Assembly (NCBI RefSeq): GCF_037971845.1
Contig: NZ_CP150227.1
Coordinates: 6,386,001 to 6,450,000 of the forward strand
Direction: 5' to 3'
DNA: 64,000 bases
Origin: Paenibacillus sp. FSL R5-0766
GTDB taxonomy: Bacteria; Bacillota; Bacilli; Paenibacillales; Paenibacillaceae
Translations under genes and position numbers: made by a program
In this document: piece by piece, positions 15,303 to 60,427 of the stretch
Layout of the letters: each line of letters opens with the position of its first letter
Numbering within the stretch: the stretch's first letter is position 1
The notes under the pieces: generated by a model
What the model was told of the DNA's origin: nothing
The model's input: only the letters and a program-made list of their open reading frames with translations
The model's database searches: none

Positions 15303-16502
15303 ATGATGAATATCAAAGAGGCAGCAAGCAGGCTTGGTATATCGGCGAGAGCCATTCGTTTTTATGAAGAAAAAGGATTAATTCTACCCGCCAAACAGTC
15401 CAGTAACGGTTATCGTACCTATACGGAGAATGATATCTGGCGGCTTCAGACCATTGCTGCACTGCGTGAGATTGGCATGTCGCTACAGGATATTACACAT
15501 GCGCTCGGAGAGATTGATCAAGGGAATCAGCAGCGGCTGGAAGAATATCTGGAGCTGCAACAGGCCGTCATGTATGCCCAGTGGATTGAGCTCAAACGTA
15601 TGATGGATACAACCCAGCGCATGATTGACCTGAATCGTCAGGACGGCCCGTTGGATGTCAGCCATCTGCACGATCTCGCGGACAGTGCCCGTCGCCTGCG
15701 CGAAGCCCGGCAGAACTGGCATGATCGGTGGAATTATGATACGCAGGCAGCCATCCATGATCAGCGAGTGGAGGCGGCAGGCAGAGGCAGTATTGGACAT
15801 CCCAATTCAGAGGACAATCATCATTCGGACAACGCCTCCCCTGTAAGCGATGAGAATGAAGTTGCACATCCACACCAGGATGCAGATCATTCCACGCAGA
15901 GCGACTCCAATGATACGGTACAGTCTTCCTTTTATCTGTATCATAACTATGACGAAGCGCTCGAACAGACAGCTCATTGGATCTCTCCCGCCCTTGGTGA
16001 GAAAGGACTGGATATTGGTACAGGCACAGGTAATCTGGCTGGGAAACTGCTACAGCACGGCGCAGACATGACTGCAATCGACCAATCCCGGGAGATGCTA
16101 CGCAGATGTCGTACCAAATATCCCAAGATGCATGTGAAACTTGGTAATTTTCTGGCGCTGCCTTTTACCGATCATTCCTTCGATTTTGTCGTATCCAGCT
16201 TTGCCATCCATCATCTGAGTCCAGACCAGCAAGGACTGGCCTTACAGGAGATGCAGCGGGTATTAACCTCGCGCGGACGTATCGGTCTAACCGATCTGAT
16301 GTTTGTTGATGCGACTCACCGTGATTCCTATATTCGACAGGCAGAGACCACAGGACACGAGGAACAGCTGCGCGCCTTGCGCGAACGTCACTTCCCTCTG
16401 CTCAGTGAGCTATGCGGCTGGCTGGAGCAACAGGGCTACGTAACCAAGCATGTGCGGCATAATGAGCTGTTGCATACGTTGCTGGCAGTTCCACTGCGGT
16501 AA
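15303..16502 (+). CDS. MerR-family regulator fused to a SAM-dependent methyltransferase
   Basis: A 399-aa two-domain protein. Residues 1-70 are a MerR winged helix with the signature AASRLGISARAIRFYEEKGL, followed by a dimerisation helix to about 115. Residues about 150-205 are a linker rich in His, Asp, Ser and Asn. Residues about 210-399 form a class I methyltransferase with motif I LDIGTGTGNLAG, the acidic loop TAIDQSREML and the post-motif FVVSSFAIHHLSPDQQ. An effector methylated by the protein could also be the signal, but that is inference. The ATG at 15303 is chosen because AAGGAGGGG precedes it and the upstream ATG at 15270 lies inside the promoter. Confidence 0.9.
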   Translation: MMNIKEAASRLGISARAIRFYEEKGLILPAKQSSNGYRTYTENDIWRLQTIAALREIGMSLQDITHALGEIDQGNQQRLEEYLELQQAVMYAQWIELKRMMDTTQRMIDLNRQDGPLDVSHLHDLADSARRLREARQNWHDRWNYDTQAAIHDQRVEAAGRGSIGHPNSEDNHHSDNASPVSDENEVAHPHQDADHSTQSDSNDTVQSSFYLYHNYDEALEQTAHWISPALGEKGLDIGTGTGNLAGKLLQHGADMTAIDQSREMLRRCRTKYPKMHVKLGNFLALPFTDHSFDFVVSSFAIHHLSPDQQGLALQEMQRVLTSRGRIGLTDLMFVDATHRDSYIRQAETTGHEEQLRALRERHFPLLSELCGWLEQQGYVTKHVRHNELLHTLLAVPLR

Positions 16503-16525
16503 CAATCGTAAGAGCATATGGCAAA

Positions 16526-16562
16526 AAGGCCATCCCGCCTTTGAATAAAGGAGGATGACCTT
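16526..16562. terminator. Bidirectional terminator between MerR-fusion and GH94 genes
   Basis: AAGGCCATCC...CTTT pairs with AAAG...GGATGACCTT around a 5-base loop, between two convergent genes. Confidence 0.65.
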
Positions 16563-16583
16563 GGTGTACATCATGCTGTGAGA

Positions 16584-44628: not shown

Positions 44629-47600
44629 TTAATTAGGCTGCGGCATCAATTGGATCACCGTCATATTGCCCTGCGTACTCTTCACACTGACAATGCTCTC
44701 GGCATCCATATTCGCTGGAAGATCGATCTGCAATCCATACGGATAGAGACGATCTACCTCTCCAATAGACATCGGTGCAGGAGTGGTCGCATCCGCATCC
44801 TGTTCATTGGATACAGATGTGTCAGGCGATGTGGAACCAGTAGCATGATCTGCATCCGTACCTTGATCCGTGTCTCCACTCGCAGCATTAGACGATGTAT
44901 TCGTTCCTGTACCCGTTGTTGTATCGGTAGCAGGATCTGGAGTGGAATCACCCGATGTTAAAGGATCGGCCTGCTGATCGCCATCCTCCGTCTGCTCTGT
45001 GTTCTCCGAGTTTCCCGCTGATGAGCCATCTGTGCTTTCTTCGGAAGTACTTCCTGAACCACCATCGGAGGTATCTTGGGTATCAGGCTCTTCATTCCGA
45101 TTAAAACTCTCCCACTTACCTGTAGCATCCAACTCCTGCGTGCTGTCATCTTTCATCGTCAATTGCAGCGGGCCTTGCTCAAACTCAGTGCTTCCCGTAT
45201 CATTCCTGAAACGGATCACCAGTTGAGCAGGTGACTCCGTACCCTCCTGTTCACTCGCAGGAATCATATAAGCAATCTGCTCCGCGAGCTGCACCTCCGG
45301 TTCAGCCGGTATGACAGGCTCCTGGGTAGATGGAGGGGATGCCGCTGGCGGCTCTACAGAATCTTTCATCCATGCATATGTACCGCCAGCAATACCAAGA
45401 ACCAGGATCAAGAGGATTAATCCGAACAGATTTTTCCTTTTACCCGTTAGCATCCGCACCAGTGGAGAGGACAATTCCGTCTTCGCACGATCATAGACCG
45501 GCTTCATTGTCTTGCTGGCTCTCACGTAATACGGTTTGAAAGCTGATTTCGACTTGAAAGCTTCACGGTCATGGGCTTTGAAATACGCCACGATGGCATC
45601 CGCATATCCTTTATGCGCATTGGAACCCCGGACAAACATTCGATGATCTCCTGACCATTCGAAGAATGGATACAGCCCTTCAGCACGACTTGCATTGGTG
45701 CGGATGAATTCAATCAGGCCAGGATAATCCAACCGATTGCTGCCGCTTCCTCCCCGATAAAAAGCCATCGGCAAAGCTTCATATGCCGCGATCCCCGGAT
45801 GAGCCTGCAGCTCTCCGGCAAGCCAGCGACGCGTCCAGCGTTGAAGTTCATTGCGCTCTGCCAGGGAAAGTGCCTCCAATGCCTCTTCTTCATTCCCCTC
45901 GCCACTAAGCCACACTCTCGCAGCCAGCATCATGTTCGTTCGAGCAGATACATCAGAGCCCTGACGTGCCGCCCAATCCCGAACCTCATTACCATGCTGC
46001 AAAATATCGACGCTTAACAACTGTTCACGGTTAACCCGATCCAGATCGAGATCCTGAATCATAAACAAGTTAATGACATAAGCGAGCTTGTCTGCAAGGC
46101 GGGTTAACTCCTCCTGATATGCCGGATCTTGACTGGCAGACGGAGATCCCCCTTTTCGATTAGGGCGGGCTGTAGCTTCAGTTTGACCAATTCGTGCCGT
46201 AATGCCTGTATCATAAGTGCCTTCCACAGATACCCTATCGAGTATGCTAACCCGTTGGAGTGCTTCATTCGCAGATTGTACCGGATTAGGCGCAGAACAT
46301 AACCGTTCACGCAGCTCATTGGCTGTCCGCTCCTGCAAGAAGCTGTAGTGGATCGCAGATGGATGGGACGTAACCCATCTTCGGATCACTTCCACAACGT
46401 TCGCTGCCGATTCCGTGCGTTTCAGCTGATTGTCCAGATAAGGCTCGAACAACAGCTTGGTAAGCGATTCATTGGCCAGCACTTTATCAAAGAAAGCCCG
46501 ATTCAGCTGCGGATCCCGATCCAGCACAGCATACAATTCCTGCACAGCACGCATACGCTTCTGGGCGCGGGCATTATTCACACCATAGATGAAATAGTCC
46601 ACAATCCGGGATTGCACCACGGGCGTGGCAACACTGAAATATTCGCCAATGCGAGCTGCGACGTCTTCTTCGGGTACGTTCTCCCGCTTCACGCTGTCCA
46701 GTTCCCTGCTGAGCAAGGTCAGGAACAGCTCGTTCAGACGGGAACGTTGCTGTAATCCACCATCCGGCTTCAAATAGGTCAGCAAGCCACTCAGGACATG
46801 ACTTTTATTATCCAGATAGAGGTCTTCCATGCCTTGTTCAAGACCATAGAACACTGCAAGTTCGCCATAGGCTTCAATGGAATGTTCCCGTCCAGGCTCC
46901 ATGCCGGATAACATTTCATCCGCAAACGTATAGAACGCATCCGCCGCCGCAGGTTCCTGCAATAAGGCCCAAGCGAATTCCGCATAAGTTAACTTCGCCA
47001 CAGATGCATCCGCATGTGTCACTCTGCCGGATACCAGATCAAAGGTGAAATCCTTCTCCGTATTCCGGTCTTTTGGACGTAACGTTCCTCGCTCTACAAA
47101 CTGGACGTGAATGCCCTTCTTGGCCTGTGGCTCCTTGGCAAACGTCATGAATCCCAGCTGCCGCCGGAATGCGTATGGTAAAACCGTGTACAGCAAACGT
47201 AACAATCCTTTGGCCCCTGCGGTCACTTCCTCTGCGGGAAGGTCCAGAGCAATGTATACTTTTCTACGTGTCGCTACAGACTGCATTACCGCATAGAGCA
47301 GGCGCTTGAACAGCACTTCGTTCATTTTCAAGGTGCTCAGCACTTGGGTTGGTGATCCTACGCCAGCATCGGTCGCCCCACCTTGTCCGCTCCTAGGTGA
47401 TATAGGCAATTCAGCAAGTGCTGGCAGAACTGTACCTTGTTCGATGTCATATGACGTGGCGAACACGGCATCCAGCCAGCCGCCTTGCTTCATCTGCTCT
47501 TCCGAACGTTCGGGAGACAAGACGTAATTATGTGCAAAAAAGGCACTGCGCAGCCCGGTGAAATCCGCAGACTGGTACACATTTTGCCCAAGGATTGTCT

Positions 47601-47847
47601 CCCCACTCTCCAGATGAAGCAGGTGAATGGAAGCCGGAAACTTCGTCTCGTCCTTCTCGCTACGGCCTGTTAGCTCCGCTGGAGCGTCATAGACACAGTA
47701 GGGGTGAAGCACTTTTTTGATAAAAGAAGGGTCCAGTCCCGGCGATGCCGCAACCGTATCAAACCCCTCTGTTGTGCGAAACACCCCGCGCCGCTCTCGG
47801 GTATACAACTGTTGTTCAATGGGCGGGGTTACGGAAGAACGCATCAT
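44629..47847 (-). CDS. Large membrane protein resembling GTPase-associated protein 1 (GAP1)
   Basis: A 1072-aa protein. Residues about 8-120 (IEQQLYTRERRGVFRTTEGF, AASPGLDPSFIKK) resemble the GAP1 N-terminal domain of families described as partners of bacterial regulatory GTPases, and about 195-330 (YIALDLPAEE, YTVLPYAFRRQLGFMTFAKE) the GAP1 middle domain; these names are recalled, not searched. A long helical region follows to about 800. A single membrane helix lies at about 806-828 (KNLFGLILLILVLGIAGG). It has Lys/Arg before it and acidic residues after it, so the last 240 residues, with a Ser/Thr/Glu/Asp-rich tether (about 930-1030), should be outside. It overlaps the GTPase gene by four bases (ATGA), strongly suggesting the two proteins act together. 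Confidence 0.72.
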   Translation of the reverse strand: MMRSSVTPPIEQQLYTRERRGVFRTTEGFDTVAASPGLDPSFIKKVLHPYCVYDAPAELTGRSEKDETKFPASIHLLHLESGETILGQNVYQSADFTGLRSAFFAHNYVLSPERSEEQMKQGGWLDAVFATSYDIEQGTVLPALAELPISPRSGQGGATDAGVGSPTQVLSTLKMNEVLFKRLLYAVMQSVATRRKVYIALDLPAEEVTAGAKGLLRLLYTVLPYAFRRQLGFMTFAKEPQAKKGIHVQFVERGTLRPKDRNTEKDFTFDLVSGRVTHADASVAKLTYAEFAWALLQEPAAADAFYTFADEMLSGMEPGREHSIEAYGELAVFYGLEQGMEDLYLDNKSHVLSGLLTYLKPDGGLQQRSRLNELFLTLLSRELDSVKRENVPEEDVAARIGEYFSVATPVVQSRIVDYFIYGVNNARAQKRMRAVQELYAVLDRDPQLNRAFFDKVLANESLTKLLFEPYLDNQLKRTESAANVVEVIRRWVTSHPSAIHYSFLQERTANELRERLCSAPNPVQSANEALQRVSILDRVSVEGTYDTGITARIGQTEATARPNRKGGSPSASQDPAYQEELTRLADKLAYVINLFMIQDLDLDRVNREQLLSVDILQHGNEVRDWAARQGSDVSARTNMMLAARVWLSGEGNEEEALEALSLAERNELQRWTRRWLAGELQAHPGIAAYEALPMAFYRGGSGSNRLDYPGLIEFIRTNASRAEGLYPFFEWSGDHRMFVRGSNAHKGYADAIVAYFKAHDREAFKSKSAFKPYYVRASKTMKPVYDRAKTELSSPLVRMLTGKRKNLFGLILLILVLGIAGGTYAWMKDSVEPPAASPPSTQEPVIPAEPEVQLAEQIAYMIPASEQEGTESPAQLVIRFRNDTGSTEFEQGPLQLTMKDDSTQELDATGKWESFNRNEEPDTQDTSDGGSGSTSEESTDGSSAGNSENTEQTEDGDQQADPLTSGDSTPDPATDTTTGTGTNTSSNAASGDTDQGTDADHATGSTSPDTSVSNEQDADATTPAPMSIGEVDRLYPYGLQIDLPANMDAESIVSVKSTQGNMTVIQLMPQPN

Positions 47848-49103
47848 CCCACTCTCCCCTCAATGTACTTCAGCTTGTACAGGAGCCACAGGAATGGTTC
47901 ATCCACGCGGATCGGGCTAACCACACCCTGCAATTTCATATCCACCGGATTGCTACCCAGCGCAGAGACTGCGAAATAGGCTGTATCTTTGAAGTACACA
48001 TCCATCGTGCCCTTGAACGGACGATCCACTTTCTCGATAAAACGCCGGATCTCCCCGTCGATATTCTCGAACTCGGTTAAGTCGAACCAATCGCGGTGCA
48101 CCATGTTGCGGAAGACATTACTGTTGGATTTGATATAATCGCCCTCTTCATCCTTGAGGGAATGCAGCATGTCGCTTTTGGTGAGCACAACCGCTGTTGG
48201 AATATTGGTCTTGGCTTTGTCCTGATACGCGATAAAATCTCCGAACATCGTCAGTACCACGTCACGTGGCTCATCGTATCGTGGTGTCCACTCTCCCGGC
48301 TCATTGCCCAGGTTAATGCGGATTTTGTCCCGAATCGAACGAATCTGAAGCGGGTCCACCATAAACAGAATACCTGCCGAGTTCTTGATGTGCTGCCCGT
48401 GAAGTCCGAGATAATCCTGCTCCACCATACCTTCACCTGCAACGTCAAAGAAAACCAGTGTCAGCGGCGCTTTATCTTCATCCTTGAACACAAACTGGAA
48501 GATAAACGGCTCCTGCAACTTTTCCTTCTGCGTGGAATCCAGCAGGTCGCCCCGTTCAAACAACGGTTCTTCATAATCCGCACGGAACCGACGGCTGATC
48601 TCCGCATTCAATGGCATGCAAGCCGCGTCAAAATGATCGGCCGTATAATGCTGCAATGTATGAATTAATGAAGTCATATAGACGGATTTCCCTACCTGGG
48701 ATGCACCAATGATGGATATGATATTGCTCGGTGCTTTACCCGCCGTAACAGGTAGCTCGTTATGACACTGCGGACACAACCGGCGGCGTGTAACTACACC
48801 GTACCGATCGTTCAGACCCATCACGATGTTATCGGAATAAATACGGTGTTCCTCCGGTACATCATGAGGTGCCAATACGGCCTCCATATCAAATACCGTG
48901 TCGAGTCCAAATCTTTCACGATACCGATTCAACTTCGCATCTTCCCCGAGTGCGTAGTCCTCATCATCATCGCGGTGATGGGCGGCGCGGAACACCACCT
49001 CTTCTGGTGAAAACTTGCTGAAACAATAAGGGCATACAATATCGTAAAACAGCGGACGTTCCTCCGGCTGTTGTCTCTTCAAAAACCGACTAAAAAAGCT
49101 CAT
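47844..49103 (-). CDS. TRAFAC-type GTPase with a split zinc ribbon
   Basis: A 419-aa cytoplasmic P-loop GTPase. CPYC (24-27) and CPQC (110-113) flank an about 80-residue insert and form a zinc ribbon. The G domain follows: Walker A GASQVGKS (133-140), G3 FFDVAGEG (about 219-226), and G4 VVLTKSD (about 305-311), the T-K-S-D form giving guanine specificity. This resembles the 'double-GTPase' family associated with GAP1 proteins (recalled). The C-terminal part has beta segments before the stop. The GTG at 49109 sits too close to AGGGGAGG, so ATG 49103 is chosen. Coupled to the GAP1-like gene by a four-base overlap. Confidence 0.85.
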   Translation of the reverse strand: MSFFSRFLKRQQPEERPLFYDIVCPYCFSKFSPEEVVFRAAHHRDDDEDYALGEDAKLNRYRERFGLDTVFDMEAVLAPHDVPEEHRIYSDNIVMGLNDRYGVVTRRRLCPQCHNELPVTAGKAPSNIISIIGASQVGKSVYMTSLIHTLQHYTADHFDAACMPLNAEISRRFRADYEEPLFERGDLLDSTQKEKLQEPFIFQFVFKDEDKAPLTLVFFDVAGEGMVEQDYLGLHGQHIKNSAGILFMVDPLQIRSIRDKIRINLGNEPGEWTPRYDEPRDVVLTMFGDFIAYQDKAKTNIPTAVVLTKSDMLHSLKDEEGDYIKSNSNVFRNMVHRDWFDLTEFENIDGEIRRFIEKVDRPFKGTMDVYFKDTAYFAVSALGSNPVDMKLQGVVSPIRVDEPFLWLLYKLKYIEGRVG

Positions 49104-49137
49104 AGCCACTCCCCTCCCCTGATCAGTCAGACTAAGG

Positions 49138-49185
49138 TGATTTACACTTGCACTACGATGACAGAGTAACCGCCCAATCGCTAGT
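49138..49185. repeat. Remnant of a family A repeat
   Basis: TTACACTTGCACTACGATGACAGA and CAATCGCT match the left half of family A; the rest is missing. It fills the gap between the GTPase gene and the orphan gene downstream of the vWA gene. Confidence 0.55.
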
Positions 49186-49193
49186 CCAACTAT

Positions 49194-49841
49194 CTAGTCT
49201 GATATAAGCCGATAGGCGGCTCCATATTTCGGTCCGTCCGTGAAGAATAATCGCACATAATCATCCTTGGCAACTTCAACGGGCGGCATCTCATTTCTTC
49301 CGGGAGCAAAATCACTCACAAAAGGGTACACCGTACCATCTTCCTTATTCAGCGGAACCCCGCCCTGTTTGCGAACATAACAGAGGGCTTCCTTTGGAAC
49401 AGGTACTTCCGCTGTGACGGTGATCAATACACTTTTTCGTTTCTGAAAAAAACCGCTCTTGTAGCGAATGGAAAAGCGGATATCCGCCTTCCCTGCGCTT
49501 GCAATCACCATGTTGTCCTCGTCTCGTTGACGGATCAGTACAGGACCCTCTTCCTCCATCTGACACACATACACGGTGTACTTGATGGCACCAAAACCTG
49601 TGATCCGATCCGTGTAACCATTGCTCGCCTTATATTCCTCTCTTGTGTACAGCTTCAGCTTGCCCTGTGCAGGCTCTTCCCCGGTACGATCATCGCTCAT
49701 CATATCCAGCTCCAGCCGTTCCACATACACAGCTTCTACCCGTTCCGGCCAGAGCCAGCGAAGTGTACAACGCCCTTCGTCCACCGCAAGTGTCAGTTTT
49801 CGAATCAAGGGTGTCGAAGGGTCTGCATCCGTAAACCGCAT
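49194..49841 (-). CDS. Small beta-rich protein of unknown family
   Basis: A 215-aa cytoplasmic protein I do not recognise. It is rich in predicted beta strands (RKLTLAVDEGRCTLRWLW, KADIRFSIRYKSGFFQKRKS, KSVLITVTAEVP, DYVRLFFTDG), with no signal peptide or membrane helix. The pattern suggests one or two beta-sandwich (fibronectin type III-like) units. ATG 49841 is chosen because GGGAGG lies nine bases upstream; the open frame extends 141 bp further, into the vWA gene, without a better site. It starts 20 bp after the vWA stop and is part of the operon. Confidence 0.68.
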   Translation of the reverse strand: MRFTDADPSTPLIRKLTLAVDEGRCTLRWLWPERVEAVYVERLELDMMSDDRTGEEPAQGKLKLYTREEYKASNGYTDRITGFGAIKYTVYVCQMEEEGPVLIRQRDEDNMVIASAGKADIRFSIRYKSGFFQKRKSVLITVTAEVPVPKEALCYVRKQGGVPLNKEDGTVYPFVSDFAPGRNEMPPVEVAKDDYVRLFFTDGPKYGAAYRLISD

Positions 49842-49860
49842 TTCCATTGACCTCCCGACG

Positions 49861-51144
49861 TTAGAATCCTTTGCTGCGTGTATCTCTTGGTCTCTGACCA
49901 AACCCTTCGGCAGAAGAAGTTCCGCCGCCAGCTTCACGACGACCTCGGCTCTTCCGCGGCGTGTTCTCCTTAATCGGAACAATCCAGGAGAAGAGGGTCA
50001 ATACGCCTGACAAGATGAGCATCGCACCCAGTCGTACGAATGTATCCCCCACGTTCGAACCGTCGAGTCCCCACTCCAGCAGAAGCCCTGCCAGTAGACC
50101 CGACACCGCACCGCCTATACCAAAGCTGAGCGCGAGATGACGGTTATCAAACACGAGTCCGAGTGACACACCCAATGCTACTCCAATCAGTAACACTGCT
50201 GCTACACGGAAAATCGCCAGATAAACGCTATGTTCCATCATGCCTGTACGCTCCGTTACCAGCGTCCGTTCATCAATCGTATCGTAGATCTGCTGGAATG
50301 CCAGATTCAGACCACCGGAATCCGGTACATCATAGTACATGCCACCCGTTTGCTGGGCAATGTTACGCAGCAAATCCGTACCCGAAGGGTCTACCAGACT
50401 AAGGCCGACTGTATTAATGGCAATCTGTTCGTTGTTATATTGGGACAAAATATCGGTCGTGTCCGCTTCACTGAAGCCATCGGATAACAAGATGACGACG
50501 GTACCGCGTTTTGGGTCCTGTTTGCCCTGAATCTGTTCCATGCCTTCCCGCAGCACGGCATCAAAATTGGTGCCGCCCGAAGTTGTGACAATGCCATCGA
50601 TTTTACTATAAACCTCATTCTTGGCCGCTTCACTATCCAGCGCAATAAACGGCTGTAATAACTGCGGTTGGTCATCAAACGTAATGACAGCTACCTGTTT
50701 GTCGCTCTCCATTTGGCTGATTAGTGTCTTGGCTGCTTCAAAGCGTCCGTTATCCGGATCTGTATCATTCATGCTACCCGAGTTGTCGATCATTAGTACG
50801 ATATCTTTTACTTGCTTCGCACCGCCCGGATTGATCTGGTACAACAATTGCAGGGCGAGTCCAACAACAAACAATAAAGCCAGTGTTGCCGGAACAAGCA
50901 ATTTCCACGACAGTCCCAGATACCGGAGCTTCCATGAAGCACCATTCAGCTTGGGTGAGATCATCTCTGCGATCAAACAGAACAACCCAACGCTCAGCGC
51001 CAGTACGCCAAAGTATAATCCCATCAGCAACAGACGCGGCATCTCCCCAAGCCATTGACGCAGCATGATTTCTCCTGCCGCAAAGCCCACTGCCCCGCCA
51101 ATCAGGCTGAACAGGACCAGGAGAAGATTGATTTTTCGCTGCAT
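49861..51144 (-). CDS. Polytopic membrane protein with a vWA domain
   Basis: A 427-aa membrane protein. Three helices at about 5-103, then a von Willebrand factor A domain (about 110-290) with the MIDAS motif DNSGSM (120-125), TSGGTNFDAV and ILLSDGFSEADT, then three helices (about 310-400) and a basic cytoplasmic tail (RKSRGRR). An N-terminus starting MQRK and the basic tail, with three helices on each side, place the vWA domain outside. A metal-dependent adhesion-type interaction with a protein or polymer is inferred. ATG 51144 is preferred over two earlier ATGs in the same frame, which overlap the GGAAAGG site. Confidence 0.85.
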   Translation of the reverse strand: MQRKINLLLVLFSLIGGAVGFAAGEIMLRQWLGEMPRLLLMGLYFGVLALSVGLFCLIAEMISPKLNGASWKLRYLGLSWKLLVPATLALLFVVGLALQLLYQINPGGAKQVKDIVLMIDNSGSMNDTDPDNGRFEAAKTLISQMESDKQVAVITFDDQPQLLQPFIALDSEAAKNEVYSKIDGIVTTSGGTNFDAVLREGMEQIQGKQDPKRGTVVILLSDGFSEADTTDILSQYNNEQIAINTVGLSLVDPSGTDLLRNIAQQTGGMYYDVPDSGGLNLAFQQIYDTIDERTLVTERTGMMEHSVYLAIFRVAAVLLIGVALGVSLGLVFDNRHLALSFGIGGAVSGLLAGLLLEWGLDGSNVGDTFVRLGAMLILSGVLTLFSWIVPIKENTPRKSRGRREAGGGTSSAEGFGQRPRDTRSKGF

Positions 51145-51229
51145 GTCTACATGCATCCTTTCCATACCAGCCCTAAGCAGGCTGAGTTAATACAAGATTG
51201 AGGCAGGGTGTCATGACAACGTCGGCGTC

Positions 51230-53677
51230 TTAACGAATGGGTGACAACTTGTCCGCCAGACCTGCGGGGTGAAGTTCATAGCCATTCTCCGTGTACGAGT
51301 CATAATATACCTTGCCGTTCCGATACACCATAAGATCCTCCAGATGGAAACCGCCCATCAGATTCAGTTTCTCCACACCACTGCTGCGTTCTTCGTACAC
51401 CACACCCAACTTGTAGATGCGTGACGTCTCTTCGGCATGTGCCGCATAGTCCATGAAAGCACTATGATGGTCGCCAAAGAAGTACTTTTCTTCATACCGA
51501 TGTTCCTGCGTATAATCGAATACCCGTACCCGAACAACAGCCTGATCCTCCAGCGTGTGGTACAACCTGCGGAACAGATCATCCTGGGTCAATACGTCTT
51601 TGTCTCCGTAGGCAATCGTTACATTGGCCCTTTGCAACAGCTCTTCTTCAAATGGCAATTGCAACGGCTCGGCCGTAAGCAGCAACGAGTGACATACCTC
51701 CATCAGCCGTTTCAGCAAACGATCATCGCCTTCTGTGGCGAGCCGGTTCATGTCTCCCATGTAACGGTCCTCAAACCATACATCCCGTCCGCGCTTGGCT
51801 TCCAGGTCGATGATTAGCTCTTCTGTCACTTTGCCGTAGTACTCCATCACGTTCTGGCCGATGTATTCATCCGCAGCAGCGATACTTTGGGCAGCTGTCT
51901 CGCGCAGTGTGCGTTCCAGCGCTTCAAGTGCTGCTGTGACGTGACGACTGAAACGATGAAGTTCTTCCATCTCCGTATCGTAGATACGCAGCAGATGTAA
52001 TTCATTTTCCAGTCGCAGTAATTCCACTTTCGGTACATACACTCGCTCCAGCATACAGTCAATCAGATTGCGTACATTCTGTTTATCACGGAACAACGCT
52101 CGTTTGAACGACTGATCTTCCACTTGCTCTTGCTGACGTTGCTCCAACAGAGCACGTGCCGATTCAAGCTGCATCGATTTATCCCGAATCAGTCCGAGCA
52201 GCGCTTCACGTACACTGCCAGGCTCACTGTCACTCCAGGCAGCCCACTGGAAGTAACCAACCTCGGGATGCTCCGCGCGGGAATGTTCAGCCTGACGGCG
52301 CAGGGAACCGCTAGAGCTGCGCTCGCGCACACGCTCTTCGACAAGACGGACAACGTTATCGCGGAAGTACGCTTCAGCTCCTTGTCCAAACAACGCTCTC
52401 TCCGCTTCACGAAGTGAGAGCGGCTTCAGATCGGAGAAACTGACGTTATGCGTCATGATGCCGCTCATGCCACTAACCAGATCTTCGTCAGGTAACAGAC
52501 CTTCGACTTTGCGTTCCACCGAGGGCGCGTCCAGTCCGAAGAAAGCGAGCTTGTCCTTAATGCTCCAATCCGGCTCTTGCCGCATGCGTGCGAGCAGATA
52601 CCGATACAGGTGATATACAACCGCTAGTGCAATCGGCTTGTTTGGCCGCCTGATCTCGGCAAAACCCGCGCTTGCATAACCGTGCTGATCAGAGGTGGTA
52701 CGAATATTGTTTTTAAAGGATGTATTGTTGTACGTGTTCGCTCCCGTGCTTGAAACGGTACCCGAGTGATCTGTACCCTGCTTCCTGTTCTTCAGCAGGC
52801 AGATGCGGCAGATGATCTCGGCATTTTCGATCCAGCCACCGGGAACGCCGGTTCCGCGCTCATTTTTGTCGGACAACAGATATACTAGATCAAACAACGG
52901 TGACGCGGGATGTGTAACCGGAATGGAGATCCCATCCTCCGTCACCAGCAGTTTACCGCTGAACGTGTAGTCCAGCGACTGCATATAATCCAGTTCCCGC
53001 AGAAAAGCGAGACCTGCTGCGCTGGCATACCCGAAGGAATCCACCTGTTCCATCTCGCTGACCAATACATGCAGATCCGTCTGCACCGACTTGAAGGCTT
53101 GGGACAAAATGGTCTCCGTCAGCTTGGTGAGCTCTGGCAACAATACATTCAACGGATCATCCGCCCTGGTTACCACCGTAACGTAAATCCGATCAAATGA
53201 CGAGTATAACCGTCCATATTCGGCAATCCGGTTACTGACCCGACGAAGCGTACGATTCAGGTCAAAGAGCACCTGATCCGATTCGTGGAAACTGCGGTGT
53301 ACATCCTTACGCCGTGTTTTGGATGGTCGCTCTGTCTGCCCAGCGGACAGAGGCAAGCGGTGAAGAGTCACCTGACCGTCATCGGACGAGCCAACATTCC
53401 TCGTTTCAACCGGATGCTCTTTCTGATCTTCTGTCCCGATCTGAACGTAGACTACACCGTCTCCGTTATCCCATTTCAGCTGATTGATCTCCTGCACAGC
53501 AGACACGGCAGGTGCAACCAGATCACCCACAAACAGGAACAGCGCCGGGTAATGGATACTGCTGCGTCCATCACCCAGGCTGCCTTGACGCTCCTGCTCT
53601 ATTGCATACTGCGCTGCATACTTCTCCAGATCACGCTTCAGGGTATTGTTCGAATTGAACTCCATCCCGGCCGCCAT
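51230..53677 (-). CDS. Pseudo-tubulin: diverged paralog of the adjacent tubulin-like GTPase
   Basis: An 815-aa cytoplasmic protein that aligns with the tubulin-like protein encoded upstream. Residues 222-275 (LAFLRELDYMQSLD; PLFDLVYLLSDKNERG) match residues 250-300 of that protein (YAALKELDYWMNVD; PPFNLCHLISATNTEG). At the GTP-binding loops the glycine-rich sequences are lost: ALFLFVGDLVAPAV stands where the partner has ILIIGLGGTGIDAL, and VVTRADDPLNVLLPELTKL where it has LLTGLSGGTGSGCFLD. It should therefore not bind GTP in the usual way and probably forms a heterodimer or cap. The C-terminal 400 residues are largely helical. Its start ATG is one base past the tubulin stop (TAAGATG), so the two are coupled. 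Confidence 0.78.
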   Translation of the reverse strand: MAAGMEFNSNNTLKRDLEKYAAQYAIEQERQGSLGDGRSSIHYPALFLFVGDLVAPAVSAVQEINQLKWDNGDGVVYVQIGTEDQKEHPVETRNVGSSDDGQVTLHRLPLSAGQTERPSKTRRKDVHRSFHESDQVLFDLNRTLRRVSNRIAEYGRLYSSFDRIYVTVVTRADDPLNVLLPELTKLTETILSQAFKSVQTDLHVLVSEMEQVDSFGYASAAGLAFLRELDYMQSLDYTFSGKLLVTEDGISIPVTHPASPLFDLVYLLSDKNERGTGVPGGWIENAEIICRICLLKNRKQGTDHSGTVSSTGANTYNNTSFKNNIRTTSDQHGYASAGFAEIRRPNKPIALAVVYHLYRYLLARMRQEPDWSIKDKLAFFGLDAPSVERKVEGLLPDEDLVSGMSGIMTHNVSFSDLKPLSLREAERALFGQGAEAYFRDNVVRLVEERVRERSSSGSLRRQAEHSRAEHPEVGYFQWAAWSDSEPGSVREALLGLIRDKSMQLESARALLEQRQQEQVEDQSFKRALFRDKQNVRNLIDCMLERVYVPKVELLRLENELHLLRIYDTEMEELHRFSRHVTAALEALERTLRETAAQSIAAADEYIGQNVMEYYGKVTEELIIDLEAKRGRDVWFEDRYMGDMNRLATEGDDRLLKRLMEVCHSLLLTAEPLQLPFEEELLQRANVTIAYGDKDVLTQDDLFRRLYHTLEDQAVVRVRVFDYTQEHRYEEKYFFGDHHSAFMDYAAHAEETSRIYKLGVVYEERSSGVEKLNLMGGFHLEDLMVYRNGKVYYDSYTENGYELHPAGLADKLSPIR

Positions 53678-53678
53678 C

Positions 53679-56600
53679 TTACTTCAGCCTTCTGCGAATG
53701 TCGTTCAGCTTGGACGACATCGTTCTGTAGAACTGATAGATGTCTTCTCCGTTAGCCAGTTCTACCCGCTCGTATTCGAGACGATCGCGCGATTCCATGA
53801 ACAGCGCAGCCAGATCATCCAGCTTCGTCAGCAGTGGGGTGATATCCTCTGAAGCGGTTAGATCGTTATCTCGGCGGGAGGCTTTGCGCAGCAATGTACT
53901 GCGATCCTTCTCAACCAGACCGCGGAAGTTGTCAAACACTTCATACTCGGCAAAGTTACGGCTCTTCATCAGGTTAGCGAATGGCTCCCATGCATCTTCT
54001 TCCGGGTCACGGTCATAGACGTAGAGCGCGCCTTTTTTGACGATGGTGTCGGTATATAACGCTTCGATGAAGCGATCATACCACTGCTCTTCGTCCTGGT
54101 ACTGGGCAAGAATGCCTTCGAGTTCGGCGACTTTGGCCGAGATGGCATTCATCTTTGCCAGTTCCTCACGTACACGCGCGATCAGCTGCGGGGAGCGTAC
54201 CAGGTTTTCTTTGGCCATATCTTCATTAATACTGCCGAAAATATCCTTAACTCCCACACGTGGCAACCCTTCGGATTGCAGACGTTTCAGCTCGATCACC
54301 GCCCGCTTCACTTCGCCGAGGTTCGGCGTTGTGGACGTGAGACGCATGTCGTAGGCTCCCAGTTTGGCAGACAGATCAAACGCTTCTGTTGTCACAATCG
54401 CATACCGGTTGCTTGTATTCTCATCAATGGATTTGGCTGTCACAATGTTGTATCCAAGCGCCTGCTCGAATTCGTTACGCACACGGGCGTTATACTGCTT
54501 CACGCGGGCGTTCTCGTACACATCTCCCCATGATTTCTCTGGAATCGGAGACGGCAGATAGGTCCAGTTGTTTTTCTCCGTTTGCACCAAGTGACGACCA
54601 ATGCCTTCTTTGTCCAAAATGGTACGTTCATAACTTTCCTCATAAACTTTGAGCGGTGTATAGACAAAAAGCGGTACCCCGTTGCGGGTGTTCAGCCAGA
54701 ATATCCGGTTACGCACTTCACTTTCCTTGACGGTAAAATGAGATTTGCCTACCGCATTGTTCTGATAATTGCGAATCCCTTTCAAAATGCCTGGCGCCTG
54801 TGCCGGTACCGATACAAATCCCCATGAAGGGAAATGCAGACTGCCTGTACTGTTGCTCAGATTGAACACCGGAACAGCCTCATCATCCAGCTTGCCAGCA
54901 ATGAAACGTTCCACGAATTTCTCAACCGACTCATCCTGACCGTACTTGATCACCAGGAAATCTTCCATGGAACGGGTAATCAGATCACCGAATTTCTCAC
55001 TCAGGAAGTCAGAGATGGAGCTGACGATATCAATCTCGTTTTCTTTCACCCACTGGCTGGAGTTTTCCAGCAATTCACGGGAGAAGTCACGGATCAGATC
55101 ATCTGTATCACGTTTATCCAACAGCCCGTCCACCACACTGACGATATCCGGCACACTTACAACGTTCCAATAATATGTTTTGTTGCCTTTGTGATCGGCT
55201 TGTTCTTCGCCGCGTGTCAGCAGGTCACCGTTCTTGGCGAATATCGAGCTAAGGGCGTTCAGCGTTTCGGTAAATACGTTATAAATGCGGCTGTTCTCCT
55301 GGTTCAGCAACTCATACAGATCTTCATAGAACTCGATCATCTGATCGTTGCGTTCCACGTCGGCGTGCAGCCAGTACTCATGAATTTTTGCTTCAATATA
55401 AGCATTCTTTTTCTTCTCTTTGGAGACAAAAGCACTCTTTGCATCGCCCAGCTTCTCTTCGGACTGCTCCTGAGCTGCTTCAATATCACGCGGAATGCGG
55501 AAGGCATTCTCACGCAGCGTTTCGATGTACGACTGAATCATCTTCAGTACACAGAAACCTTTTTCCGTATAAATCAGACGAGAGACATAGAACGGACCTT
55601 GTTCGGGATGCAAAAACATACGCCGGATCTGTTCGGTGAACTGACCCGCAATCTCACCCGGCAGTTGTTTCTTCGCCTTGATATATTCTTCACGGGCACG
55701 GGCCAGGAAGTTCTGCTCCAGTTCGGTGTCCATATTCACAACCTGTGATTTCACCACGTTGCCATAGGATAAACGCTCGCTGTTCTGATACCCAGGCAGC
55801 GGCTCTGGCACGCGAGCTTCAAAGGACTTGACCACACTTTCGAGATCAATGCCCAGCTTGCGGGCGAACTTCTCGGTATCCTCCTGGTTCGGTGCTTTGG
55901 AGAACATGGTGTTCATTTTGTCGAACATGCGATACGCCAGATACGTGGTCATCTCTTCAATTGGCAGTACAGCCGAAGATGCACCGATGATGTTGTAATC
56001 ATAGTTAGCCGGGTACACCTTGTTCATCTGTGCAATGTTGGTCCGGATGTTGCTGATATAGTCATGGATCGCAAACTCCTCACCCGACTGCTTCTCCTCA
56101 CTTGCCATGAAGTTGGTAATGTTCTCGGCAGTGACGTTCATGCAGTAATCGTAGGCGTTCTCCAGCAATTTGCCTTCGGTATTGGTTGCAGAGATCAGAT
56201 GACACAGGTTAAATGGTGGCAGTGGTGAGTTGACTGTTAAAATATTGCCGTACTTCTGTGTAAACCGCTCACCGCGGCTATCCACGTTCATCCAGTAATC
56301 CAGCTCTTTGAGCGCAGCATATCCGTTTTTACGAATGTATTCACGAGTGTGTTCGCTCAAGCTTTTGTTGGACAGGTTCACGTCTGGCGTGAACAGATAG
56401 CCCAGCGTATTCACGCGGTCAATCCCGGCAGAGCCGTGATCCCGTTCGATAATGCCGCGCACGATATAGGAAATATCGAGGAAACAGCCGCTGCCTGTTC
56501 CGCCGGACAGACCTGTCAGCAGGAACACCATCAGTTTTTTGTTGGTGCCTACGGATAAGGTTTTGATCTTTTTATCGATGGCCTGTACGACCTGATTAAT

Positions 56601-57068
56601 CTTGGTGAACAGGAGCAGACGTCCAGCCTGACGTACACCTGCGGCGCCGTTCATACCATCCGTGATGCTCAGTTCGGGAGACAGCCAGTCCGTAATGTAC
56701 GGTTCAAGCACGCTGCGGTTCTGTAGAAGTCCGCCAATCTCGGCATTGGACAGCAATACGAATTCATTGATCGGATCAAGTCCGATCCCTTTATACTTTT
56801 TGGCACGATCCTGTTCGTTTGTCTCAAAAGCCAGAAACTCCACATTGTCCGGCTTGTCCATTTTTTTCTTGGATACCGGGTCCTGTGGCAGCTTGAAACG
56901 ACGGTTGATCTGATATTTGAGGCGCAGCAACGCATCAATTCCCGTTCCTCCCAGACCGATAATCAGAATGGGGTTATCAATTGTATCAACTCTGATCTTC
57001 TCACTGACAATACCTCCGCCAAGTGATACATCCAGTTGCTGAATATGTTCTCTAACAATCGGTTTCAT
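53679..57068 (-). CDS. Tubulin/FtsZ-like GTPase, long form (Tubulin_2-like)
   Basis: An 1129-aa cytoplasmic protein whose N-terminal third has the tubulin/FtsZ fold signatures: a glycine-rich first loop ILIIGLGGTGIDAL (35-48), a nucleotide-site strand EFLAFETNEQD (77-87), and the tubulin signature loop LLTGLSGGTGSGCFLD (183-198). A GTPase that polymerises or switches between states is expected by fold. The large remaining part (about 450-1129) is mostly helical with coiled-coil stretches and has no match I recognise. FtsZ (about 380 aa) and TubZ lack it. AAGGAGG lies eight bases before the start. The gene is followed at once by its pseudo-tubulin paralog. Repeat copy 6 lies in the leader. Confidence 0.85.
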   Translation of the reverse strand: MKPIVREHIQQLDVSLGGGIVSEKIRVDTIDNPILIIGLGGTGIDALLRLKYQINRRFKLPQDPVSKKKMDKPDNVEFLAFETNEQDRAKKYKGIGLDPINEFVLLSNAEIGGLLQNRSVLEPYITDWLSPELSITDGMNGAAGVRQAGRLLLFTKINQVVQAIDKKIKTLSVGTNKKLMVFLLTGLSGGTGSGCFLDISYIVRGIIERDHGSAGIDRVNTLGYLFTPDVNLSNKSLSEHTREYIRKNGYAALKELDYWMNVDSRGERFTQKYGNILTVNSPLPPFNLCHLISATNTEGKLLENAYDYCMNVTAENITNFMASEEKQSGEEFAIHDYISNIRTNIAQMNKVYPANYDYNIIGASSAVLPIEEMTTYLAYRMFDKMNTMFSKAPNQEDTEKFARKLGIDLESVVKSFEARVPEPLPGYQNSERLSYGNVVKSQVVNMDTELEQNFLARAREEYIKAKKQLPGEIAGQFTEQIRRMFLHPEQGPFYVSRLIYTEKGFCVLKMIQSYIETLRENAFRIPRDIEAAQEQSEEKLGDAKSAFVSKEKKKNAYIEAKIHEYWLHADVERNDQMIEFYEDLYELLNQENSRIYNVFTETLNALSSIFAKNGDLLTRGEEQADHKGNKTYYWNVVSVPDIVSVVDGLLDKRDTDDLIRDFSRELLENSSQWVKENEIDIVSSISDFLSEKFGDLITRSMEDFLVIKYGQDESVEKFVERFIAGKLDDEAVPVFNLSNSTGSLHFPSWGFVSVPAQAPGILKGIRNYQNNAVGKSHFTVKESEVRNRIFWLNTRNGVPLFVYTPLKVYEESYERTILDKEGIGRHLVQTEKNNWTYLPSPIPEKSWGDVYENARVKQYNARVRNEFEQALGYNIVTAKSIDENTSNRYAIVTTEAFDLSAKLGAYDMRLTSTTPNLGEVKRAVIELKRLQSEGLPRVGVKDIFGSINEDMAKENLVRSPQLIARVREELAKMNAISAKVAELEGILAQYQDEEQWYDRFIEALYTDTIVKKGALYVYDRDPEEDAWEPFANLMKSRNFAEYEVFDNFRGLVEKDRSTLLRKASRRDNDLTASEDITPLLTKLDDLAALFMESRDRLEYERVELANGEDIYQFYRTMSSKLNDIRRRLK

Positions 57069-57109
57069 TCCATGTCCTCCTTAGATTAACGCAGTCGGAA
57101 CTACAACAT

Positions 57110-57265
57110 GATTACACTTGCCACTCCGATGACAGAACAACCTTCCGATCGCTGTTATCCCCAGATTTTTTGATTCTCTTTTTCATAGGTGAAAATCTGG
57201 GGATAAAGGCGAACGCTTCGCTTCTCCAGCTTTTTTCTGTCCTCTGCGTTCTCGTGTAAACGGTT
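57110..57265. repeat. MITE-like palindromic repeat, family A, copy 6 (short form)
   Basis: The core is well kept (TTACACTTGCCACTCCGATG, GATCGCTGTTATCCCC, TCTGGGGATAAAGGCG, CTGTCCTCTGCG, GTGTAAA), but the outer 14-bp ends are lost. It sits between the vWA gene and the tubulin gene of the same operon, about 40 bp before the tubulin start. Confidence 0.82.
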
Positions 57266-57292
57266 AGATCCAACTTCTATTGGCAATCATTT

Positions 57293-59086
57293 TTACACCA
57301 GGTACTCAATCAAAATGGTCTTGTCCGCCTGTTGCAGCGGGATGCTCAGTCGGTCACCGTTCTTCAGTTCAACGCCTGAGCTTGCATCGACTGCACGACC
57401 GGATTTCTCCAGCGTACCGCCTGCGGTGTTACGGATTATAATTCGATCCCCATTGCTGGGCGTAAATACGTATTTTTCGGTTTCCTTCAGCTCAGGGTCC
57501 AGTTGCAACAACTGATGCAGATGGAATCTGCCCCGGAAGGATACCAGCTTTTTATATTGCGGATATGATTTATCTCCCGTGTTCTCATCACGAATCTCCA
57601 CGACCATCTGGCCTACAAAACCTCGATTTTTTCGTTTCAGCCAGCCCAGCAGGAACCATGCACCAACACCGACCACAATCAGAGCTACAACACCCAGGAT
57701 GACAGGCAACCAAGGAAACGGCTTGTCCTGTTCACCGCCAGACGTTGTTGGTTGAGATCCACTTCCAGCTGCTCCGCTCGCGTTGATCGTGATTGGCTCA
57801 CTTTCACGGTAGAAGCTGTCTTCTTCCGCACGGATGACTAATTCATAGTTATGATTGTCTGGTACTTCAAACGTTCCGGCAAAACCAGAACCTGTGTTTT
57901 CCAGCGGTTGTTCCTCGCTTTTACCTGTATCTACATCTTTCACAACCAGCGTGGCCTTCATATCTGTATACAGATCATTATCCTGAAGCGGCTGACCGCC
58001 ATTCTCCAGTTTGGCTGCAAGATCAACCTTGTCTCCTTTGGTATAGGACTTGGTCTTAATTGGGTCCACAACGAGCTGAAGATCGTAGTTGAACAACAGG
58101 TTGATATCGATGCTGTCTTTCGGAGCCCCTTTTACCCGAAGTTTCCAGTCTCCCTCTTGGGGTTTCAACAGCTTCACGAGTGAATAACTCTTCGAAGTCG
58201 AGAGCTTGGCTGCATCCGAGTTCATATCCACGGCTTGTCCGGAAGGGTCCGTCAATTGCACTTCCACCGGCTTCGAGGATATGATCGAAATATTTGCTTC
58301 CAATACACTGTCGTTCGGTACATTCACGGTAACTTCCTGATAACTGCCGTTTCCCGTTACAGAGGGCAGCTTGACCACATTCAGTTTGGCATGATCGGCG
58401 AAGATCTCACTCAGAATCTGTGGCAGATCATCCGGCGTATCGGTAATGAATGACTTGCCTCCGGTCTGCTGAGCCAGGTCTGCGAGTGCATTCTTGTTCA
58501 GCTTGCCATCCGCGTTCAGTCCAATCGTATACACCGGAATGCCCTGATCCTGTGCTTCCTTCACGGCTTTTGCCAGGTCAGCATCAGATTGTGCCTGTGT
58601 ACGGCCTTTGGTTTTGTTAAAGTCATTGTTACCATCCGCCAGCAGCACGATCATCGGCGAGTGGGATGGGTCTGCACCATGATTCAGTATGTTCACGGCT
58701 TCGGCGACACCAACTGAGACATCGGTATATGGCCCCCGGCCGAGCTGATCAATAAAATCCTTCAGGCTGCTCTTGTCCGTATCGGACTGAATCGTAAGCA
58801 TAGCCTTTTCCCGCTCCACCTGATCGGTATAAGCGACAATCCCTACCTTGTCCCCCTGGACGGGCAGCATATCAATAAACATTTTCATGGCTTCATTACT
58901 GATCTTGTCACGGTCACTTGTATTCATCGAGTTACTTACATCGGCTACAAGTACCGCATCGATTCCGCTTGTCTGTGCCTGAGCCGCTGCAGCTTGTGGC
59001 AGCAACGCTTGAGGTAACAGTAGCGTTAGAATTGCCAGCAGAACCATCGTTCCACTGAGCCAGCGTATTTTGCGTGTCCGCAGCAT
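57293..59086 (-). CDS. Single-pass vWA surface protein with an FHA-like cytoplasmic domain
   Basis: A 597-aa membrane protein. A signal peptide (LLAILTLLLPQALLPQ, ending AAA-AQ) is followed by a vWA domain (about 38-230) with MIDAS DVSNSMN (49-55) and VLLADGNNDF, then two Ig-like beta regions (about 240-425), a Ser/Gly tether, one membrane helix (about 457-478, LGVVALIVVGVGAWFLLGW) and a cytoplasmic beta domain of about 110 residues. That last part (GDRIIIRNTAGG, VELKNGDRLSIPL) resembles a forkhead-associated domain, which would bind phosphothreonine, though the FHA Ser/His pair is not obvious. First gene of the operon. ATG 59086 has GAAGGAG eight bases upstream. Confidence 0.85.
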   Translation of the reverse strand: MLRTRKIRWLSGTMVLLAILTLLLPQALLPQAAAAQAQTSGIDAVLVADVSNSMNTSDRDKISNEAMKMFIDMLPVQGDKVGIVAYTDQVEREKAMLTIQSDTDKSSLKDFIDQLGRGPYTDVSVGVAEAVNILNHGADPSHSPMIVLLADGNNDFNKTKGRTQAQSDADLAKAVKEAQDQGIPVYTIGLNADGKLNKNALADLAQQTGGKSFITDTPDDLPQILSEIFADHAKLNVVKLPSVTGNGSYQEVTVNVPNDSVLEANISIISSKPVEVQLTDPSGQAVDMNSDAAKLSTSKSYSLVKLLKPQEGDWKLRVKGAPKDSIDINLLFNYDLQLVVDPIKTKSYTKGDKVDLAAKLENGGQPLQDNDLYTDMKATLVVKDVDTGKSEEQPLENTGSGFAGTFEVPDNHNYELVIRAEEDSFYRESEPITINASGAAGSGSQPTTSGGEQDKPFPWLPVILGVVALIVVGVGAWFLLGWLKRKNRGFVGQMVVEIRDENTGDKSYPQYKKLVSFRGRFHLHQLLQLDPELKETEKYVFTPSNGDRIIIRNTAGGTLEKSGRAVDASSGVELKNGDRLSIPLQQADKTILIEYLV

Positions 59087-59348
59087 TGGGTGTACTCCTT
59101 CACGTTTGAGATTAAAATGGGAATAGTTTATTATAGGCGTCAAGCCTTAAGGAAATCTTAACAGTCTGCTAATAAATTCTGAAAAGCACCCCTATCTTGA
59201 GTTACAGTTTTGTAATGACTGACAAAAATCGACGATTTCACGCCTGCAACTGGCACAAAAGTACCAACTATGGAAATATGATATAGTTATTGCCAGCAAA
59301 CTGCAATATAACAGCGCTTGATTACCAAGCTATAGAAGGGAACGGATT

Positions 59349-59492
59349 ATGGTTACATACGGATGCCTCGCCATATTGTTTCTTTTTGTCATGATAAAGG
59401 GTTTTGCACTCCACCTTCATCGGCGGAAACCGGTCTCCCGCGAAGAGACGGATCGTACCCTCTACACTATTCTGAATGGTGAGCGTGATTGA
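59349..59492 (+). CDS. 47-aa single-pass membrane peptide
   Basis: A small open frame with a good ribosome-binding site (AAGGGA, seven bases before the ATG). The peptide starts MVTYGCLAILFLFVMIKGFA, one membrane helix, followed by the basic HLHRRKP and a charged tail (SREETDRTLYTILNGERD). This predicts the N-terminus outside and the tail inside. It ends two bases before the start of the next gene, so it should be co-translated with it. I do not recognise a family. Confidence 0.65.
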   Translation: MVTYGCLAILFLFVMIKGFALHLHRRKPVSREETDRTLYTILNGERD

Positions 59493-59494
59493 GC

Positions 59495-60427
59495 ATGAGT
59501 ACTAAACTAGTTGTATCCATAAGACCATTTCATCGAACGACCTATGCCTATGAAAAGTTGCAAGTCTGCTCACGTTGTGGACAGTACACCTGCCTGTGGG
59601 AAGAGGAGTGCACGGCCTGTGGCCGGGGTACCCTGAACTCCGTTCAGTCGAAGGCGACTTCCCGTGTGAAACGCCGCATTGCACGCGACCTGTTCATTAC
59701 CATATTGTTCGGTGCTGCTGCCACCTATTTCGGTGAGACCATAGATCAGACCATGGCGGCAGCCAGCGTTTCCCTGCTGCTTCTGGCCTTACTCATCTTC
59801 ATGCAGAAACGTTCGTTCGAGGTAGAACAGCAGCGCGAGTTGAAGCGCACGTTGCAACAGGATGAGGAACTCATCCGCCAGGGTATTAACCGCAACTGGG
59901 CTCTGGTCGCCGAAGCTCGAAAGCAGGATGAAGCACTTGCCTATGAGATGCTCCGCGAGATCGGCTCACTCGTCTACAATGACCGGATTCGACTGCAGCA
60001 GGTTGCGCTGTTACAATCCTTTGTCCTGCGCAGTGATATGGATCTGCAGCTCAAGCCCTTGCTACTACGCAGTTTCGAGCGGCTGCTCGCTGAATATATC
60101 GGTGAGATCGCACGACTTAAGCCGGATTTGATCCGTGAAGATGCGATTCGTTATATCGCAACCTATGAAGTGAATATTTTACAGCTCCACAATGGAATTC
60201 AGATACTTACAGCCGTAGCTGCTGCTGCCGTGCGCAAGAGCAAATATATTGAGTTATTCCCTAGTCTTATTACCCGCTACGCCCGCTTTATGCCCAAGGA
60301 TCGCTTCATGAGACTTTATCACACGATTGAACGCTATCCGAGCAAGGCACGAGGGGGATTGGCGGAGTCGGTAGGCCGGGTGTATAACGAGAAATATCGG
60401 GATCAATACGCAGATGTTCAGCTGTAG
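59495..60427 (+). CDS. Zinc-ribbon membrane protein of unknown function
   Basis: A 310-aa protein. CSRCG (about 25-29) and CTACG (about 40-44) form an N-terminal zinc ribbon. Two membrane helices follow (about 67-85 and 89-107, FITILFGAAATYFG and VSLLLLALLIFM). The rest, about 200 residues, is helical and probably cytoplasmic (EDAIRYIATYEVNILQLHNG; RLYHTIERYPSKARGG). ATG 59495 is two bases after the 47-aa peptide's stop; TTG 59489 is an alternative. It is divergent from the tubulin operon with a 408-bp gap from vWA start to this start. The zinc ribbon echoes the one in the GTPase and suggests it belongs to the same system (inference). Confidence 0.78.
   Translation: MSTKLVVSIRPFHRTTYAYEKLQVCSRCGQYTCLWEEECTACGRGTLNSVQSKATSRVKRRIARDLFITILFGAAATYFGETIDQTMAAASVSLLLLALLIFMQKRSFEVEQQRELKRTLQQDEELIRQGINRNWALVAEARKQDEALAYEMLREIGSLVYNDRIRLQQVALLQSFVLRSDMDLQLKPLLLRSFERLLAEYIGEIARLKPDLIREDAIRYIATYEVNILQLHNGIQILTAVAAAAVRKSKYIELFPSLITRYARFMPKDRFMRLYHTIERYPSKARGGLAESVGRVYNEKYRDQYADVQL

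Follow-up and report, generated by a model that had tools for sequence, protein, structure and literature searches.

A fixed nine-gene module of Paenibacillaceae, with predicted tubulin, GTPase and von Willebrand factor A proteins, assigned by its domains to the Firmicutes tubulin theme of GAP1-N2/DO-GTPase systems

Among GAP1-N2/DO-GTPase systems of Firmicutes, a tubulin theme has been set out by Kaur et al. 2020 (PMC7159879), who predict for it a role in conflict; the tubulin-centred theme is the largest, with about 52% of GAP1-N2 neighbourhoods. According to the section on this theme, Firmicutes members of the theme combine two tubulin genes bearing a C-terminal coiled coil with two von Willebrand factor A (vWA) genes–one with YtkA, the other with multiple transmembrane (TM) segments and its vWA domain outside–and a highly polar extension of GAP1 (GTPase-associated protein 1), and GAP1-N2 systems carry a protein with fibronectin type III (FN3) repeats. 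The conflict class was assigned there from kinship and a link with the multicellular habit, and variable components are stressed. The tubulin family had been named FtsZl1 by Makarova and Koonin 2010 (PMC2875224), who suggested that it remodels membranes together with vWA and GTPase partners, and DO-GTPases of Gammaproteobacteria are located in phage-shock envelope-stress operons, with a predicted role in membrane stress (PMC11237479, 2024). Here we describe a cluster of nine genes at 44629–60427 of a 64,000-nucleotide stretch of Paenibacillus sp. FSL R5-0766 (the window; contig NZ_CP150227.1, positions 6,386,001 to 6,450,000), which, judged from its domains, is the Firmicutes tubulin theme of these systems, here in the form of a fixed nine-gene module. 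An earlier reading of the DNA letters (the original prediction) had called the cluster undescribed and akin in parts only to systems of Aravind's group; its layout appears in the 2020 paper and its tubulin family was named in 2010, and the set belongs with that group's GTPase-centric class rather than the MoxR-vWA class. The original prediction had also held that an already assigned function would count against it, and one has been assigned, as far as prediction goes (PMC7159879); no laboratory test of the system was found in the open PubMed Central literature, outside which most subscription journals lie.

The likeness to the GAP1-N2 tubulin theme extends to a zinc-ribbon DO-GTPase adjoining GAP1-N2, an FN3 protein, what appears to be a pair of tubulin-domain genes, a highly polar GAP1 extension and two vWA genes, of which one is multi-TM and has its vWA domain predicted here to be outside. 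In contrast, a divergent pair coding for a 47-aa peptide and a zinc-ribbon membrane protein (ZnR-TM) is not named in the section text on the Firmicutes theme, YtkA is not recognised by Pfam on the secreted vWA protein, and the set of nine is invariant across the loci studied here, whereas PMC7159879 stresses variable components across systems. The FtsZl1 neighbourhoods of PMC2875224 are similar in having vWA and divergent GTPase neighbours and a Tubulin_2 protein whose N-terminal GTPase core is followed by a long C-terminal part, and the FtsZl1 alignment includes Brevibacillus brevis; FtsZl1 is broader, however, with kinases or OmpA-like proteins in other phyla, and GAP1 and a second tubulin are not named in that paper's text on the family. 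The MoxR-vWA systems (PMC7159879) also place vWA proteins beside a nucleotide switch, but here the switch is a GTPase and no MoxR AAA+ ATPase is matched; as first proposed, family searches with the nine proteins matched neither a MoxR ATPase nor a toxin family. Another secreted Paenibacillus vWA protein is CmoA of Paenibacillus sp. NAIST15-1, whose mutant cannot move on hard agar, but at 1,064 aa and with eight IPT/TIG domains it corresponds in size and domains to none of the nine genes (PMC5072692). Our data add to the earlier descriptions the membership of the divergent pair, the all-or-none occurrence of the set, its selection and inheritance, and an upstream TTAA box in some lineages.

Open reading frame (ORF) calls, with gene starts set from orthologue comparison, bear out the nine genes first proposed, seven of them packed on the minus strand beside a divergent pair; the successive intergenic gaps are −4, 90, 19, 85, 1, 224 (containing a repeat copy), 262 and 2 bp. 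Forty loci were picked for spread among genomes with the tubulin-like gene, giving 41 with the window, and the co-occurrence search suggested with the original prediction returned the neighbours of that gene in one order and one orientation in 41/41 loci, from ten genera of Paenibacillaceae; because order and orientation are kept throughout, the gene set is beyond chance. Three GAP1 genes of this set run beyond the end of the fetched stretch, the start of the 47-aa gene of L069 is miscalled, and the vWA entry of L049 is a fragment. A further group of 80 named loci, taken as the best 80 from 304 relatives, shares genomes with the first set and is not independent of it; 75 of these also have all nine genes. 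Four of the other five are cut by contig ends, and the fifth (L105) has no detected 47-aa gene; its genome is taken as the same one as that of L051, which carries the fusion described below. The order test fails in two of the 80 (L145 and L155), both of them cut, where the match for the absent six-TM vWA gene falls inside the other vWA gene. Outside the family, eight genes keep their order and orientation in 12/12 loci from two other families (12 of 16 matches fetched), with the 47-aa gene detected in eight of these, in some weakly. A fixed set of nine genes provides a minimal unit for genetic study.

The gene set, domains, linkage, selection, within-genus inheritance and one gene fusion established here provide the ground for a reading that we favour tentatively and that may well prove wrong: an envelope machine, for which we infer outward vWA sensing, coupling through a GTPase/GAP1 switch, a membrane tubulin polymer, and an output in which the envelope is reinforced or remodelled during stress. 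The two vWA proteins, predicted to face outside with intact metal sites, would sense or bind wall or surface ligands, one contributing a cytosolic tail and the other sitting in the membrane with its six TM helices. Anchored in the membrane as a hub, with its polar tail on the outer side, GAP1 may act together with the FN3 protein to couple the vWA state to the DO-GTPase switch, which would gate the membrane assembly of a tubulin-like polymer with its degenerate partner; ZnR-TM and the 47-aa peptide would form an accessory membrane subunit, and the envelope would be reinforced or remodelled locally. The kept TM segments and metal-site motifs, the all-or-none occurrence and the single-copy tubulin are further support. 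It is a long shot that the module is a bacterial counterpart of the integrin-cytoskeleton connection, in which outward metal-site vWA domains are coupled by the GTPase switch to an inner tubulin-type polymer; were this true, surface contact or wall strain would drive a cytoskeletal response, and a conserved physiological machine would so far have been misfiled among conflict systems.

The tubulin-like GTPase of the FtsZl1/Tubulin_2 family (53679–57068, minus strand; 1129 aa) matches PF13809 Tubulin_2 at 8.1e-76 and has the FtsZl1 layout, an N-terminal FtsZ-like core with a GTP-binding loop followed by a long C-terminal part. The gene is single copy, and its product is nearly always 1129 aa; the five commonest forms of its T4 loop, all SGGTGSG, account for 38/41 orthologues, and LGGTGIDAL is present in 41/41. 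We note that the assemblies of two genomes (G057 and G059) have this gene in pieces, where loss and assembly error are both possible. The second, degenerate tubulin-like gene (51230–53677, minus strand), called a pseudo-tubulin in the original prediction, matches Tubulin_2 at only 0.0027 by itself, under the cut-off, and no GGTGSG or GGTG loop like those of the first tubulin was seen in its sequence. Its family aligns to the tubulin family by hhalign with P 0.0018 and a probability of just 14.6%, and in another family three proteins of similar length that adjoin the tubulin have Tubulin_2 matches of 2.1e-5, 2.8e-5 and 9.7e-5. These comparisons hint that the second gene also codes for a tubulin-domain protein, which would give the set two. 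Kinship to tubulin and FtsZ is what would recommend an accessory of cell division or DNA partition, but such a role is scarcely credible for a patchily present locus in a genome with an ordinary FtsZ elsewhere, and none of the nine proteins matches a centromere-binding protein in Pfam.

FtsZl1 context with vWA and GTPase genes (PMC2875224), and the membrane parts kept here, would also suit a general membrane-remodelling or vesicle machine working on an FtsZ-like polymer and having no outside sensor, as Makarova and Koonin 2010 proposed. A reviewer printed with that paper objected over localisation, and two vWA proteins and a GAP1 tail that are all predicted outside are hard to explain if there is no outside input; we consider such a machine improbable.

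The envelope reading places its sensors in the two vWA proteins. The vWA/6TM protein (49861–51144, minus strand; VWA domain match 3.4e-18) has six TM helices with the vWA domain between TM3 and TM4, predicted to be outside, and its metal ion-dependent adhesion site (MIDAS) motif, DxSxSM, is present in 40/41 aligned sequences, the exception being the L049 fragment of a split gene. The second protein (SP-vWA-TM; 57293–59086, minus strand; VWA match 8e-15) has a signal peptide-like N-terminus, the vWA domain, beta domains, a TM segment at aa 462–480 and then a conserved cytosolic domain of about 115 aa; the six commonest forms of its MIDAS, all DxSxSM, account for 38/41. YtkA has no Pfam match on this protein at E≤10, and the region matches GBD_Hemicentin (3.6e-7) and MG2 (3.6e-5). 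Adhesion-type domains predicted to face outward would also befit a contact-dependent predation or export apparatus, although neither the nine proteins nor the added genes of three loci (below) match a secretion ATPase, channel or effector family, and we regard such an apparatus as very unlikely.

The candidate switch of the envelope machine lies at the left end of the cluster, where the GAP1 and GTPase genes overlap by 4 bp. The GTPase (47844–49103, minus strand), of the TRAFAC type with CxxC pairs ahead of the G domain, matches PF19993 DO-GTPase2 at 8.9e-7 and 29.2 bits, slightly above the 27-bit cut-off. Its orthologues have GxxxxGKS in 41/41, DVAGE in 40/41, and TKSD in 34/41 or AKSD in 7/41; in the zinc ribbon CPYC or CPFC is present in 41/41, and in 37/41 the second CxxC pair takes one of its four most frequent forms. 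GAP1 (44629–47847, minus strand) consists of GAP1-N2 (PF20013, 1.6e-41), GAP1-M (PF20014, 1.5e-25), a further part, one TM segment at aa 807–825 by hydropathy, and an acidic, highly polar C-terminal tail of 247 aa (19% D/E, 3% K/R and 44% S/T/N/Q/G). Between the GTPase and vWA/6TM genes is a gene (49194–49841, minus strand) for what was called an orphan beta protein, with no TM segment; sequence-profile searches gave no match for it, and model and fold matches point to a two-domain FN3-type protein, its first domain clear and its second less so. Homologues of this protein (P0061 and others) are labelled 'beta-mannanase' in public records, for which fold and family searches give no support, and the name is perhaps a propagated misannotation.

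The two divergent membrane genes are members of the set. The 47-aa single-TM peptide (59349–59492, plus strand) has a counterpart in 41/41 loci, with weak matches (E above 1e-3) in L052 and L064, and ZnR-TM (59495–60427, plus strand) has a zinc ribbon, a TM hairpin and a helical cytosolic domain. In L051 the two are fused in a single ORF of 376 aa (15846–16976), which is good evidence for a genuine 47-aa gene that functions together with its neighbour. The original view of these parts, as one system spanning the membrane and with its components as then named, is upheld.

Within Bacilli, the tubulin and GAP1 go together. Tubulin_2 matches were found in 47 of 299 Bacilli genomes, 42 of them strong (E below 1e-70), and GAP1-N2 was found in the identical 42, on the same contig and 8–10 kb away; the sample is rich in the genus and family of the window, which supply 26 of the 42. 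The other five have only weak Tubulin_2 matches (1.9e-6 to 3.1e-4) in open frames of 284–462 aa, which are perhaps other tubulin relatives. Among 14 control genomes outside Bacilli, Tubulin_2 was found in three and GAP1-N2 in one, so that there tubulin occurs without GAP1-N2; the original prediction had named solitary tubulin homologues as evidence against the set, and they are encountered outside Bacilli but not among the strong matches within. Carriers of the tubulin-like gene comprise 51/60 genomes in the genus and 95/197 in the family, in 10/19 genera.

Kaur et al. proposed that GAP1, FN3 and vWA proteins sense invasion and that the tubulins assemble as NTP-dependent effectors, which would make the cluster an antiphage or anti-competitor conflict system, and the variation inside the cluster bears on this directly, as conflict predicts variable parts. 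The kinship and multicellular habit on which they classed it (PMC7159879) speak for such a system, and it stays alive because of the patchy distribution and a GAP1 that diverges fastest of the eight genes measured. Yet the nine-gene set is unchanged in 41/41 loci, and variable parts are scarce: intergenic lengths differ widely, and examination of 37 gaps of 300 bp or more identified added genes in 3/41 loci only (L065–L067, all one genus), none of an effector-like family. No highly variable effector components were found inside the cluster (nine genes in 41/41, eight in 12/12, additions in 3/41), the flanks outside it not having been examined; the only flanking genes checked, two in the window, code for a DEAD-box helicase and an ABC ATPase, and the best PADLOC match of the nine proteins is only E 0.022. 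Near-invariance of the gene set is evidence against an arms-race system, as are purifying selection and recent clades held in common with FtsZ, and we consider a conflict role possible though unlikely. The envelope role is preferred because the conflict reading rests on variable components, yet gene content hardly varies, and because other DO-GTPases sit in envelope-stress operons (PMC11237479). With membrane remodelling (2010) and conflict (2020) both in print as predictions, evolutionary data bear on both.

All nine genes are under purifying selection. Over all genes dN/dS in ten locus pairs ranges from 0 to 0.262, from 0 to 0.045 for the GTPase and tubulin genes, with GAP1 lying between 0.081 and 0.237; the ratios are rough because many dS values are >1, the GAP1 value is missing for one pair and the pseudo-tubulin value for one, and these alignments, like those of the motifs, took in the L049 vWA fragment. 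Median distances relative to FtsZ, covering eight genes with the 47-aa gene left out, are 1.5 for the GTPase, 1.6 for the tubulin, 3.4–4.8 for five others and 5.2 for GAP1. In trees of 32 genomes, tubulin and FtsZ have 16/29 splits in common, against ≤2 in 500 shuffles, and because the shared splits are recent clades, inheritance is vertical at least within genera. The patchiness would be explained by losses or transfers.

Upstream of the first gene of the seven-gene operon, which codes for SP-vWA-TM, there is a promoter-like region (59130–59161, minus strand) with TTAA-N7-TTAA, an 11-bp direct repeat (59147–59161), followed 11 bp on by TATAAT (59130–59135). The box is present in 16/41 loci, other spacings from 5 to 23 giving 0 to 3, and in 200 shuffles the count averages 0.82 and never exceeds 4. 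It is present in 7/22 clade representatives, a count that shuffles reach in 0/500, and upstream of seven other cluster genes its count is 0 or 1 of 22; the test is not blind because the motif was picked by eye from the same sequences beforehand. The 11-bp repeat, seen in the light of such boxes in general, hints that an OmpR-family regulator might act here, and PhoP is a guess at its identity. Across 59087–59190, upstream of the operon, 96 of 104 bases are invariant in 18 aligned close relatives (window included). We note that this stretch is near-invariant although coding dS is often close to 1 or higher when the window is compared with other close relatives.

Several of these observations weigh against the envelope reading. 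The patchy presence (51/60 in the genus, 95/197 in the family) implies a dispensable function, as for a defence locus; GAP1 has 5.2 times the divergence rate of FtsZ; and Mantel correlations with FtsZ distances are weak (tubulin rho 0.21, with 13/999 permutations as high; GTPase rho 0.15, 61/999; GAP1 rho 0.04, 348/999). The cluster is also not free of change. L065–L067 carry a pyridine nucleotide-disulphide oxidoreductase gene on the operon strand between the FN3 and six-TM vWA genes (L065 4820–6187, L066 3098–4459, L067 14584–15945), which was not found in the other 38 loci, the 12 or the 80; L066 has in addition a transposase-like pair (DDE_3 and HTH_32; 6212–7335), flanked by the six-TM vWA gene and that of the second tubulin; and L049 (genome G020) has its six-TM vWA gene broken into ORFs of 172 aa and 250 aa, either by loss or by sequence error. 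The TTAA box is in none of the 12 loci of other families, and its pattern is not enriched genome-wide, with 4 matches against 6 for a reversed-pattern control. Filament-forming elements are described as not recognisable in the FtsZl1 family (PMC2875224), and no polymer, ligand or phenotype of the system is on record.

The largest gap within the operon (57069–57292) contains a copy of a dispersed palindromic repeat (57146–57219, with arms at 57146–57169 and 57192–57215), which lies outside the system; the genome contains 31 exact sites of the repeat's 18-base core and 0 of a reversed control. Repeat-related sequence is also present between the vWA and 47-aa genes in L090, L092 and partly L094, and not in that gap in the window; because of this difference the repeat seems to move around the operon.

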